Assembly: GCF_001039475.1 (NCBI RefSeq)
Contig: NZ_LELK01000001.1
Span: 221,466-285,465, forward strand
Reading direction: 5' to 3'
From: Guptibacillus hwajinpoensis
Lineage (GTDB): Bacteria > Bacillota > Bacilli > Bacillales > Guptibacillaceae
Length of the DNA: 64,000 nt
Notes under the pieces: generated by a model
What the model saw: the letters and a program-made list of their open reading frames with translations, nothing else
What the model was told of the DNA's origin: nothing
Databases searched by the model: none
Program-made: the position numbers and the translations under genes
In this document: one piece after another, positions 23,264 through 33,897 of the stretch
Position numbering within the stretch: the first letter of the stretch is position 1
Layout: every line of letters starts with the position of its first letter

Positions 23264-25801
23264 ATGAGTCGTACAGAAAAAGAGCCACAAGCAAGTTGTT
23301 GCTCTAGTCATGCGGAGCCTGAATTCAATGTAAAAAGCACAAGCTCCTGCTGTTCCGAGGAAGATGCTTCTACTACTTCTACGTGTTATGGAAGTGATAC
23401 AAACACGAAAGAAGATCAAACAGCAACCACTTCTTCTAGCTGTAGTACGGGAGAAAGTAAAGACAAGCAAGTGGAACCAGTGGATAGGGAGTCAAAAGAG
23501 ACAAAGACTTTGGAATTCAAAATTCATGGAATGGATTGTCCTTCTTGTGCGGCCACCATTGAAAAAGCGCTACTAAAGACTGAAGGAATTCAATCGGTTC
23601 GAGTTAATTATGGGACCGGGAAGATGGCAGTGAGTGCGAATGATCGTTCAGTGTACGATCTAGTTCCTGATCAAGTGCATAAGCTGGGCTTTAAAGCAGA
23701 GCCTTTGGTCAAAAACACCAATATGCAAACGTATAAAATTGAAGGTATGGATTGTGGCTCTTGTGCGATGACAATTGAAAAGCATTTAAGCAAAAATCCA
23801 ACTATTCAAGAGGTTCATGTTAATTTTTCTACAGGAAAAATGCAGATTGATCATAGTACGAATCAAAATGAAATTATCAAAGAGGTACAAAGAGCCGGGT
23901 TTGATGCTTCCTTAGATTCTCAAAGGCAAGGAACCGCTAATCAAAAGAAAAAATGGATTTCGACGACCACCATATCAGGGATATTCCTTGCCCTTGGTTT
24001 TATTGGCTCGTTTACTAGCGTAACCCCTGGGTTCATTACGGCTTTATATGCTGTAGCTATCCTTATCGGTGGATTTAAGCCAGCAAAAAGTGCCTTTTAT
24101 GCCATTAAAAGTGGTTCCTTAGATATGAATGTTCTTATGTCCTCAGCAGCCATTGGAGCAGCCCTCATTGGAGAATGGTTTGAAGGGGCGACGGTCGTAT
24201 GGCTTTTCGCCTTAGGGAACACTTTACAAAACAGATCGATTGAGCGTACAAGAGAATCGATTCGTAGTCTCATTAACCTTACCCCGTCTGAAGCAACCAT
24301 TAAATCCGGTGATCAACTTATTCGAAAACCAGTAGAAGAAGTGGAAGTCAATGCCATAATCGTCATCAAACCCGGCGAGAAAATACCTCTGGATGGAGAG
24401 ATCTTGTCAGGTACATCCAGTATTAATCAAGCTCCCATCACCGGAGAATCTTTGCCTGTAGATAAACAGCGGGGAGATACAGTTTATGCAGGTACAGTTA
24501 ATGAAAGTGGCTCTTTAGAAGTCAAGGTAACAAAGTTGGTGGAAGATACAACAATTGCAAAAATTATTCATCTTGTGGAAGAAGCTCAGGAGAAAAAAGC
24601 TCCAACCCAAGCTTTTGTAGATCGTTTTGCAAATGTCTACACTCCTATTGTTTTTAGCCTTGCTCTTCTTGTCATGGTGGTACCGCCGTTATTTGGATTC
24701 GGATCGTGGGGAGAGTGGGTCTATAAAGGTCTTGCATTATTAGTGGTGGCTTGTCCTTGTGCATTGGTTATATCTACTCCAGTGGCCATTGTATCTGCGA
24801 TTGGGAATGCAGCTAAAAATGGAGTTCTCATTAAAGGGGGCACCTTCTTAGAAAAGGCTGGGGCCATTCAAGCGATTGCTTTTGATAAGACAGGAACGCT
24901 TACAGAAGGAAAACCTAACGTTGCCGAGGTGATTTCACTTTATAACAATAGAGAAGAGCTAATCGGCATTACCAGAACCATTGAAGAACATTCCACTCAT
25001 CCGATCGCTAAAGCAATCACGATTTATGCAGAAGAACGAAAAATTTCTGCTAAGAAAGGGGAAGACTTTAAAGCCATTGCGGGTAAAGGAGCTCAGGCTA
25101 CAATTAATGGTATAGAATACTTTGCTGGTAAACCTAAACTGTTTAAGGATATGGAAGTTCCTCTTAAAGAAATAGAAGAACGTATGGAATCATTGCAAAG
25201 AGACGGAAACACGCTGATAGTCGTAGGGACTCGTACGGAGGTTCTAGGTCTCATAGCTGTTGCAGATTCCATTCGTGACATTACTGTTCAATCCATTCAA
25301 AAGCTTAAACAAGTAGGAATGGGAGAAATGGTAATGTTAACAGGTGATAATGATGGAACGGCGAAGAAAATCGTAGCTGAGACAGGTATCGATCGCTATT
25401 TTGCTGAGCTGTTACCTGAAGACAAAGTGATCGCGGTGAAGAAATTACAGGATGAAGGAAAAAGTGTTGCTATGGTAGGGGATGGAATTAATGATGCTCC
25501 GGCCCTTGCGACAGCTGATCTTGGAATTGCCATGGGTGGTGCCGGAACGGACACGGCTATGGAGACTGCCGACATTGTACTAATGGCGGATAATTTAGAG
25601 AAACTTCCCCATACAATCCGCTTAAGTCGAAGAGCCATGAACATCATTAAGCAGAATGTCTGGTTTTCTTTGATTACGAAAGTGGCAGCTTTAGCTTTAA
25701 TCTTCCCTGGGTTTTTAACCTTATGGATGGCTGTGTTAAGTGATACCGGTGCAGCTCTTTTGGTCATTCTAAACAGTATGAGATTGTTAAGGCAAAAGTA
25801 A
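23264..25801 (+). CDS. cadA: CadA-type P1B heavy-metal-translocating ATPase
   Basis: An 845-residue plasma-membrane pump exporting Cd(II), Zn(II) and Pb(II). It begins with an unusually long Cys/Ser/Thr-rich tail (about residues 10-62: SCC, SSCC, STCYG, SSCS). Two HMA domains follow (CPSC at 92-95, CGSC at 164-167), then the transmembrane CPC (497-499), phosphorylation DKTGT (Asp541), and SxHP-like STHPIAKA in the nucleotide domain. The CPC plus DKTG order defines P1B-type ATPases. Two HMA domains plus the Cys tail is more metal-binding capacity than the usual single HMA. Confidence 0.95.
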   Translation: MSRTEKEPQASCCSSHAEPEFNVKSTSSCCSEEDASTTSTCYGSDTNTKEDQTATTSSSCSTGESKDKQVEPVDRESKETKTLEFKIHGMDCPSCAATIEKALLKTEGIQSVRVNYGTGKMAVSANDRSVYDLVPDQVHKLGFKAEPLVKNTNMQTYKIEGMDCGSCAMTIEKHLSKNPTIQEVHVNFSTGKMQIDHSTNQNEIIKEVQRAGFDASLDSQRQGTANQKKKWISTTTISGIFLALGFIGSFTSVTPGFITALYAVAILIGGFKPAKSAFYAIKSGSLDMNVLMSSAAIGAALIGEWFEGATVVWLFALGNTLQNRSIERTRESIRSLINLTPSEATIKSGDQLIRKPVEEVEVNAIIVIKPGEKIPLDGEILSGTSSINQAPITGESLPVDKQRGDTVYAGTVNESGSLEVKVTKLVEDTTIAKIIHLVEEAQEKKAPTQAFVDRFANVYTPIVFSLALLVMVVPPLFGFGSWGEWVYKGLALLVVACPCALVISTPVAIVSAIGNAAKNGVLIKGGTFLEKAGAIQAIAFDKTGTLTEGKPNVAEVISLYNNREELIGITRTIEEHSTHPIAKAITIYAEERKISAKKGEDFKAIAGKGAQATINGIEYFAGKPKLFKDMEVPLKEIEERMESLQRDGNTLIVVGTRTEVLGLIAVADSIRDITVQSIQKLKQVGMGEMVMLTGDNDGTAKKIVAETGIDRYFAELLPEDKVIAVKKLQDEGKSVAMVGDGINDAPALATADLGIAMGGAGTDTAMETADIVLMADNLEKLPHTIRLSRRAMNIIKQNVWFSLITKVAALALIFPGFLTLWMAVLSDTGAALLVILNSMRLLRQK

Positions 25802-25845: not shown

Positions 25846-25874
25846 TTGACTAAATTTGGATAAAATGATTAAAT
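25846..25874 (+). promoter_or_regulatory. Promoter of the T-box leader
   Basis: TTGACT (25846-25851), 17-nt spacer, TTAAAT (25869-25874) is a plausible sigma-A promoter whose transcript would begin just before stem I of the T-box. Confidence 0.5.
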
Positions 25875-25885
25875 TATCTTAATTT

Positions 25886-26148
25886 TATAAAAACAAGCTG
25901 TGAAAAGAAGAGTAGATAGGCATTGTTCAAAACAGAGATCTCCGGTAGCTGAGAAGGAGATGACGTGCCTATCGAAGAAAGACTTGGAGCTTCGTTATGG
26001 AAAATAGCGACGGGTTCTCCCGTTATAGAGGTAAGGTATACCTATGTGTACCTATTGAGATTGATATGGTGACGTATCGATAAACTGAGATGGTACCGCG
26101 ACTAACTTTCGCCCTCGAGAGGACATTTCTTGAGGGCGAAAGTTTTTT
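25886..26148 (+). ncRNA. T-box leader (tRNA-sensing riboswitch), likely lysine or near-cognate specifier
   Basis: All T-box parts are present. Stem I: basal AAGCT/AGCTT (25895-25899/25988-25992), AGTA (25911-25914) opposite GAA (25974-25976), helix GATAGGCA/TGCCTATC (25915-25922/25966-25973). Conserved T-box sequence GAGATGGTACCGCG at 26087-26100. Terminator ACTTTCGCCCTC/GAGGGCGAAAGT (26105-26116/26132-26143) with a T run. By spacing from the GAA of the specifier loop, the specifier codon is AAA at 25978-25980 (lysine), but neighbouring registers cannot be excluded. Uncharged tRNA would stabilise the antiterminator and switch on the GNAT gene. Confidence 0.88.
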
Positions 26149-26177
26149 GTTGTTTATTTTAGAAGGAGGGAATTCAA

Positions 26178-26735
26178 TTGGATCCACTATTAATGGAAAT
26201 TGATACACAATTAGAAACCGAACGGTTACTACTTAGAATGCCGAGGCCCGGAGATGGTACGGTAGTAAATAAAGCAATTAAATCTTCTGTTGCTGAATTG
26301 AAGCCATGGCTAGGGTTTGTACAGGAACTTCCAACCGTCGAAGAAACCGAACTCAATACGAGAGAAGCACATATTAAATTTCTAAAGCGGGAGAGTTTAC
26401 GGTACCTCATTTTTTTGAAAGAAACGAACGAATTTGTTGGTTCTACAGGGTTTCACAATATTCATTGGAGCATTCCAAAGCTCGAGATTGGTTACTGGAT
26501 CGATACGTCATATAGTGGAAATGGATATATGACAGAAGCCGTCGGTAAACTAACAGATTTCGCATTAGATCAGTTACGGTGCAGAAGAATCGAGATCAGA
26601 TGTGATCGCGAAAACGATAGAAGTCGTGCTGTTCCGGAAAGACTAGGTTTTTCATTAGAAGGGATTTTGAAGAACGAGGATTTATCAATTGATGGCTCGA
26701 AAATAACGGATACATGTGTGTATGCGAAAGTCTAA
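26178..26735 (+). CDS. GNAT N-acetyltransferase (RimJ/RimL type) under T-box control
   Basis: A 185-residue GNAT protein: TERLLLRMPRPGDGTVVNKAI, then FVGSTGFHNIHWSIPKLEIGYWIDTSYSGNGYMTEAV (acetyl-CoA loop SGNGYM) and RAVPERLGFSLEGIL. This is the Rim family layout of ribosomal or small-molecule acetyltransferases. Start TTG 26178 is 8 nt after AGAAGGAGGG; ATG 26193 is an alternative. It is the only gene downstream of the T-box, so its expression should follow amino-acid starvation, which is unusual for this family. Substrate unknown. Confidence 0.85.
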   Translation: MDPLLMEIDTQLETERLLLRMPRPGDGTVVNKAIKSSVAELKPWLGFVQELPTVEETELNTREAHIKFLKRESLRYLIFLKETNEFVGSTGFHNIHWSIPKLEIGYWIDTSYSGNGYMTEAVGKLTDFALDQLRCRRIEIRCDRENDRSRAVPERLGFSLEGILKNEDLSIDGSKITDTCVYAKV

Positions 26736-26757: not shown

Positions 26758-27600
26758 TTATTTTGCTGCCGTTTGACGAATCCCTCTCTTAAGGAGGGCC
26801 TGCCTTAACGTACTGAATATTGTTAATCCGTTTAGATTGCAGCCTTGTGCAACCATTGAAAGAGCGGTTGATGGTTGTATACCACAAATACACATGCTGA
26901 TACCGCTATACGTAAGGGCTTTTTTCATCCGAGTTAGACTGTTTACTGTTGGAAGATCTAAGTTCGATACACCTGATAGATCAAATAAAATATCACTTAG
27001 CTGTTTGTCATAGCATTGATTTAAGGTTTCTTTCATAATCAAGTCCGTATGTTTTGGGTGAATGGAGCCTGTCATTGGCAGGAGAGCAAGGGTATCGGTG
27101 ATTGGGATAATGGTGATGTGAAGTTGATCATCAGTTAGTAAGTCCTTTACTTGATGTTGGCTGTGGTATCCTATACAAATGCCGTTATACGTAAACGTCA
27201 CTTCTTCGATGATGGCATCAATCCTTTTACTAACATCCAAAGGACAGGCGGTGAGAGATTTCATTTGAATTTCTCTCATTGCTGCTTCGAAACTTACGCG
27301 ACGAAAAAGTGTAAGCACTCGAAAGGATTCTTCAAGAGGGATTCCGTTTGAAATAGCAAGGTGGCCGGTTGCCTTTGCCCAGGTTCTAATATCGTGCGTT
27401 ATATCTGCATCGCTTATATAGAGGGCTTTCCCGATGTATTCAATAAGTTCTGCTCGCCAATCAAGGATTTGATCTTCCTTCACTCTTGAAAGCTTTAACT
27501 TTTTACCATAGCTTTCATCCTGAAGTGTAAAGATCGATTTCGCTAACTGATATCGGTCAGTAACAATTTTATTTCCTATTTCAAAAAGGATATCTTCCAT
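26758..27600 (-). CDS. RsbR-type STAS domain stress regulator
   Basis: A 280-residue soluble protein. The C-terminal STAS domain starts near HITIIPITDTLALLPMTGSI and contains LSDILFDLSGVSNLDLPTVNSLTRMKKAL, including the Ser/Thr environment phosphorylated by RsbT in RsbR/RsbS proteins. The N-terminal alpha-helical domain is a non-haem globin-like sensor typical of RsbR co-antagonists. Such proteins form stressosomes that control sigma-B. ATG 27600 is preceded by AAAGGTGG on the minus strand; GTG 27612 is an alternative start. Confidence 0.8.
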   Translation of the reverse strand: MEDILFEIGNKIVTDRYQLAKSIFTLQDESYGKKLKLSRVKEDQILDWRAELIEYIGKALYISDADITHDIRTWAKATGHLAISNGIPLEESFRVLTLFRRVSFEAAMREIQMKSLTACPLDVSKRIDAIIEEVTFTYNGICIGYHSQHQVKDLLTDDQLHITIIPITDTLALLPMTGSIHPKHTDLIMKETLNQCYDKQLSDILFDLSGVSNLDLPTVNSLTRMKKALTYSGISMCICGIQPSTALSMVAQGCNLNGLTIFSTLRQALLKRGIRQTAAK

Positions 27601-27748
27601 CCAGTCATCCACCTTTCTCTTTTAAAATGATGCTGGAGACGTGGTAGCCGCTGCTTATGTACAAATGTTTCGTCTTTATTTATTCGACTAAAAGTGATGG
27701 TCTCCTCTAATTTGCTTCACCTTTCTTCTTAATCCTCTTTTTTCCAAA

Positions 27749-33703: not shown

Positions 33704-33763
33704 GAAGCTTCACTAAATAGCAGGTTTACTCCTTTAGAGAGTAAATCTGGTTAACTGCATATT

Positions 33764-33897
33764 TCTTATTAAGAGAAGTGGAGGGACCTGGCCCGACGAA
33801 ACTTCAGCAACCTCCATCCGAAAGGTGCTGCTTCCAGCAAGAGTAATCTTGAAAGATAAGAGCAAACGTCCTCTTCTCTTGAAGTGGGCTTTTTTAG
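33764..33897 (+). ncRNA. SAM-I (S-box) riboswitch
   Basis: Aptamer core at 33764-33861: P1 TCTTAT/ATAAGA (33764-33769/33856-33861), AGAGAAGTGGAGGGAC, GGCCCGA(C)GAAACTTCAGCAACC, GTGCTGC-TTCCAGCAAGAG, and CTTGAAAGATAAGAGC. These are the conserved S-box elements, including the kink-turn and pseudoknot segments. Downstream, CTTCTCTT (33873-33880) can pair with AAGAGAAG (33771-33778), and a GGGCTTTTTT tail ends the expression platform. S-adenosylmethionine excess should terminate transcription before the MetT-type gene. Confidence 0.93.

Follow-up and report, generated by a model that had tools for sequence, protein, structure and literature searches.

The window, a stretch of 64,000 nucleotides of Guptibacillus hwajinpoensis DNA, contains a T-box riboswitch, very probably specific for tRNA-Lys, directly in front of a gene for a RimL/MccE-like GNAT acetyltransferase, and this arrangement recurs across at least seven families. 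Neither the T-box RNA nor the GNAT enzyme is unusual in itself; judging from the open-access literature, the novelty lies in their conserved pairing. No report of a T-box ahead of a GNAT or other acetyltransferase gene was found in the open-access literature searched, and individual cases may be listed in databases such as TBDB. T-boxes serve to infer the function of the genes that they control, and a conserved Lys T-box supplies an otherwise anonymous RimL-like GNAT with a precise trigger in physiology and with a class of substrates that can be tested. We tentatively propose that this GNAT is an inducible protector against a blocker of lysyl-tRNA charging.

The T-box leader and its target gene

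The genome to which the window belongs is of the Bacillales type and 4.26 Mb in size; by the GNAT protein, its closest named relatives are Pseudalkalibacillus hwajinpoensis and Bacillus sp. NTK071. An initial annotation had described a complete T-box with the AGTA and GAA motifs of stem I, a T-box sequence and a terminator. A search with the Rfam covariance model supported this description and its coordinates: RF00230 was matched over the full model (1-219) at 25891-26119 of the + strand, with 103.1 bits (gathering score 93) and an E-value of 1.2e-21, which places the leader in this family. In the Rfam alignment and in our own leader model, the stem I region spans 25895-25992 and carries the AGUA motif, the specifier-loop motif GAA within GAA-G-AAA-G, and the distal loop (the 94 bits given to this region by our model R1 follow from its construction, the window sequence being a member of the model). 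The T-box sequence TGGTACCGCGA (26091-26101) includes a UGGU that is complementary to the ACCA end of tRNA-Lys. It is followed by the best terminator-like stem of the region, an intrinsic terminator of 19 pairs (stem 26104-26144) with a T run (whole element 26104-26150). The 3' arm of the antiterminator sits inside the 5' arm of the terminator, making the two structures mutually exclusive as in other T-boxes, and the antiterminator pairs covary (helices 9 and 10 of the leader alignment). The minimum fold of 25886-26155 gave z = -6.4 relative to dinucleotide shuffles. A chance T-box look-alike was ruled out by conservation and by covariation in 30 homologous leaders.

The initial annotation depended on transcription starting upstream of 25886, and a scan for promoters detected by consensus match a sigma-A-type promoter-like site just upstream, at 25846-25875 (+). 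It consists of a -35 hexamer TTGACT (25846-25851) and a -10 hexamer TTAAAT (25869-25874), or TAAATT one base on, from which the transcript would be expected to start near 25881-25886. Similar hexamers (TTGACG...TTAAAT) are present in two relatives (L022 and L023). The leader and its terminator are followed by a ribosome binding site, AAGGAGGG (26163-26170), and by the GNAT gene (26178-26735, +), which has a TTG start and encodes 185 amino acids. Upstream of the promoter-like site, a heavy-metal P-type ATPase gene ends at 25801 and is followed by a hairpin; downstream lies a convergent STAS-domain gene (26758-27612). As no further + strand gene precedes this convergent gene, the promoter-like site, T-box leader, strong terminator and GNAT gene form a single-gene unit, in line with the earlier observation that the T-box serves only a RimJ/RimL-type acetyltransferase.

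Two further loci were recorded. A SAM riboswitch at 33763-33862 (RF00162, 81.5 bits) precedes a gene of the Na+/H+ antiporter family (PF03553; 33930-35234), which is possibly a methionine transporter. A GNAT paralogue with 53% identity (L084, G000:C14:307925-308476) is found about 60 kb further on; it has its own promoter-like TTGACA...TATAAT, and no T-box was detected upstream of it. Counterparts of this second paralogue are present in other genomes of the genus, again with no T-box detected upstream.

Specifier codon and tRNA identity

In the RF00230 alignment, GAA-G-AAA-G is followed by nine bases up to the end of stem I, placing AAA (Lys) at 25978-25980 (+), after GAA (25974-25976) and G25977 and before G25981. 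The same 3'-side spacing was observed in the leaders of tyrS (UAC), valS (GUC), trpS (UGG), leuS (CUC) and serS (UCC) of the same genome. Because the frame of the window leader equals that of these aminoacyl-tRNA synthetase-linked leaders, whose gene reveals the codon, the specifier was assigned to AAA at this position. AAA had been proposed initially from spacing alone, together with an Rfam search as a check; that search, once run, placed the same codon in the specifier loop. A specifier one base later (AAG, also a Lys codon in the GNAT leader) was excluded by the frame of the genome's synthetase-linked leaders.

A second, independent sign for Lys came from the discriminator end. The tRNA-Lys(UUU) of the genome ends in ACCA, which the UGGU of the leader matches, whereas tRNA-Asn and tRNA-Gln both end in GCCA and are mismatched. 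AAA was retained in all 12 GNAT leaders. We therefore regard the window leader, with high confidence, as a tRNA-Lys T-box. A response to another tRNA is highly improbable: the lysK leader of B. cereus is reported to be cross-induced in part by uncharged tRNA-Asn (PMC2916919), but here AAA is fixed and the GCCA end of the genome's tRNA-Asn would mismatch UGGU. The genome contains 21 T-box matches, 16 of them above the curated score, and no other lysine-linked T-box was found among those whose downstream genes were read.

Conservation of the T-box-GNAT linkage

The protein search for GNAT relatives, which did not look for T-boxes, revealed one directly upstream in four of 46 relatives (L022, L023, L047 and L062), or in four of the 43 usable loci. 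Within the genus of the window, four of 14 genomes have the arrangement. When the other GNAT orthologues were scanned with the model of the window leader, no hidden T-box was found upstream; in one of them (L052) a T-box lies at 1358, far from the GNAT gene. The absence of the T-box from most orthologues indicates that the enzyme does not depend on T-box control everywhere.

We then scanned 397 Bacillales genomes with a stem I pattern; the reversed pattern, run as a control, gave almost no matches. In 15 matches the specifier frame contained AAA, and 14 of these were genuine; the other (L119) lacked the T-box sequence and was discarded as a chance match. All 14 AAA leaders of this subtype precede either a GNAT gene (10 genomes, seven families) or lysK, the gene for class I lysyl-tRNA synthetase (four genomes); the pattern being strict, these counts are lower bounds and the 10:4 ratio is valid for this pattern only. 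A second, stricter order-wide scan, whose gap was too tight to recover the window, was used only for extra lysK matches and gave four more lysK leaders. The distant GNAT leaders scored 99-123 bits with the Rfam model. Comparison of the leaders of orthologous GNAT genes, recommended in the initial annotation, showed that AAA, UGGU and the pairing are conserved.

The genes neighbouring the GNAT gene vary between families, which indicates that the leader travels with the gene and that both form their own unit. Mapped onto the tree of GNAT proteins, presence of the T-box requires four changes, at least three of which are forced by well-supported branches. This distribution would fit either an old linkage with repeated losses or a small number of gains. 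At one locus (L133), group II intron matches are located at 1526-2047, just upstream of the T-box-GNAT unit.

Relationship to other T-box leaders

Thirty leaders with four types of target (GNAT, lysK, MFS and glnS) could be aligned along their whole length. Their consensus structure comprises 49 pairs, 26 of which have changed on both sides without loss of pairing. Such two-sided changes accounted for 160 cells, against 37 in shuffles and 8-36 when the partner was slid, and 96.8% of cells were paired, against 86.8% and 37-47%, respectively. Pattern matches with GAA-N-CAA-G, among those read, precede either a DHA3-type MFS transporter gene or a glutaminyl-tRNA synthetase gene; these gene names are readings of translations, backed by Pfam and NCBIfam for one locus (L010). 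As glnS genes follow such leaders, CAA was read as a Gln specifier, and the frame of these members is further supported, in most MFS leaders, by UGGC. UGGU accompanied AAA in 16 of 16 aligned leaders. UGGC accompanied CAA in 11 of the 12 MFS leaders, but both glnS leaders lacked it. A leader tree built without the specifier grouped 11 of the 12 MFS leaders with glnS. A single origin was not rejected on this tree, with p-AU 0.26 for the GNAT leaders and p-AU 0.47 when all Lys leaders were taken together. By sequence comparison, one leader lineage thus appears to serve Lys and Gln through a one-base change of the specifier (AAA/CAA). The Gln members differ from the GNAT leader in this base, in a mostly UGGC sequence that matches the GCCA end of tRNA-Gln, and in their target genes.

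A Gln member is present as a second non-canonical T-box in the genome of the window itself (L010, G000:C14:1868221-1868472, minus strand), with a CAA specifier and UGGC, before a gene for a 412-aa DHA3-type MFS protein. The best family matches of this protein are an H+-antiporter subfamily, EntS, and tetracycline and macrolide exporters, all NCBIfam matches being below their cut-offs. Two Bacillales loci (L106 and L107) carry a glutaminyl-tRNA synthetase-like gene behind a CAA T-box; the indirect route is the usual source of Gln-tRNA in this order. One lysK gene behind a Lys T-box looks interrupted (L140/L126, G111 contig 145): the open frame begins late, and the part coding for the N-terminus lies in another frame.

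Among known systems, the lysK T-box of B. cereus is the closest. It also belongs to RF00230, and the lysK leaders sampled here share AAA and UGGU and align over their full length with the GNAT leaders. It drives an aminoacyl-tRNA synthetase, whereas the window leader drives an acetyltransferase in a genome where no class I lysyl-tRNA synthetase was detected above cut-off. Tested in B. subtilis, the B. cereus leader responded to uncharged tRNA-Lys, with up to 120-fold induction upon depletion of lysine or lysyl-tRNA synthetase (PMC2916919). The authors called T-box control of lysyl-tRNA synthetase very rare and suggested that this T-box perhaps evolved from an element for a different tRNA (PMC2916919), an idea with which the Gln relatives described here seem to fit. 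The lysK-type Lys T-box, which has been regarded as very rare, fronts an acetyltransferase as well as a synthetase. A non-synthetase gene under a T-box read as Lys is also known from BH0807, an MFS protein proposed to be a lysine permease (Wels et al. 2008, PMC2494555); the Lys specifier is as read in that work, and the gene encodes a transporter where that of the window encodes an acetyltransferase. In the same survey, genes without a clear amino-acid link follow 8% of T-boxes (PMC2494555). BH0807, annotated there as a lysine-specific permease, may belong to the MFS family with Gln specifiers.

The acetyltransferase

The GNAT protein matched PF13302 with 98.6 bits (gathering score 25.4) and scored 57.2 bits with the RimL equivalog NF007539, far below its cut-off of 184 bits. 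Its predicted structure is confident (pLDDT 94). The best fold matches of the model were Salmonella RimL, a Vibrio RimL-like protein, MccE and B. subtilis YdaF, and the same four proteins were nearest by sequence. RimL was the best match, with MccE close behind (TM 0.84-0.87 for both), and most chains of RimL, MccE and YdaF gave TM values of 0.80-0.87 at 21-28% identity. C142, S149 and D168 of the GNAT align with C134, S141 and E160 of RimL, so that the catalytic Cys, Ser and acidic positions of the RimL/MccE type are kept. In 50 relatives, C142 and S149 were invariant (50/50 each), and the third position was Asp in 43 and Glu in two, hence acidic in 45.

RimL and MccE accept many aminoacyl groups, and acetylation by either enzyme inactivates a wide variety of aminoacyl-adenylate analogues (PMC3817062, PMC4964394); RimL also acetylates L12 (PMC4964394). 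Judged from the model, the fold of the GNAT is equally compatible with N-terminal protein acetylation, as by RimL and putatively by YdaF. T-box control of RimL, MccE or YdaF was not found in the literature searched.

Possible role of the T-box-controlled acetyltransferase

From the RNA, specifier, tRNA match, conserved linkage and enzyme family computed here, we infer how the window gene may be induced, on what its product may act and how it may protect the cell. As long as tRNA-Lys is charged, the terminator would form and the GNAT gene would be off. If uncharged tRNA-Lys accumulated, it would pair with the leader at two places, anticodon UUU with specifier AAA and the ACCA end with UGGU; the antiterminator would then form and the gene would be transcribed, as suggested by the sequence and by the tested lysK homologue. 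The substrate of the enzyme would be a blocker of lysyl-tRNA synthesis, for instance a lysyl-adenylate-like inhibitor, whose amino group it would acetylate; blocked charging would thus switch on its own remedy.

The initial annotation had left the choice between lysine or peptide metabolism and protection from an aminoacyl compound. The evidence favours protection over metabolism, because the enzyme is RimL/MccE-like and because the leader lineage otherwise serves ancillary synthetases and an exporter-like protein. Since RimL and MccE disarm aminoacyl-nucleotide inhibitors of aminoacyl-tRNA synthetases, an inducible protector is the most likely role of the GNAT. Among known inhibitors of lysyl-tRNA synthesis, none was found that is tied to hosts of the T-box-GNAT unit; if the protective role holds, such leaders would point to natural inhibitors of this kind that are not yet known. 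A wider and more speculative idea, rather unlikely as it stands, is that a Bacillales gene family treats failing tRNA charging as the signal that charging is under attack: a leader lineage re-specified by one base between Lys and Gln would turn on an acetyltransferase that detoxifies, an exporter or a replacement synthetase whenever a foreign compound blocks the synthesis of lysyl- or glutaminyl-tRNA.

The main rival of the inducible protector is a starvation-induced protein acetyltransferase, a RimL-like N-terminal enzyme that would modify a ribosomal or other translation protein in lysine starvation and so belong to a programme that slows translation. Among solved structures, the closest in sequence and fold include RimL, which modifies a ribosomal protein, and YdaF, but the GNAT lies far under the RimL cut-off, a lysine-only trigger would be odd for general ribosome modification, and genomes of the genus also keep the second paralogue without a detected T-box; we consider this role unlikely. 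Somewhat less probable still is that the enzyme acetylates the free amino group of lysine or of an analogue such as thialysine. The Lys specifier would suit such a substrate, as a toxic analogue would lower, or compete for, lysyl-tRNA charging, and the analogue version is possible. Acetylation of lysine would, however, be counterproductive in a cell short of lysyl-tRNA, and the enzyme's closest relatives modify the alpha-amino group of peptides or aminoacyl-nucleotides (PMC4964394). It is improbable that the leader is a leftover, captured from lysK or a related gene or stranded by gene loss and without meaning for the GNAT: homology to lysK leaders, the many orthologues without a leader and the four label changes would agree with this, but a single origin of the GNAT leaders was not rejected, and the pairing, specifier and UGGU, which neutral decay would have broken, were kept in all 12 GNAT leaders across seven families.
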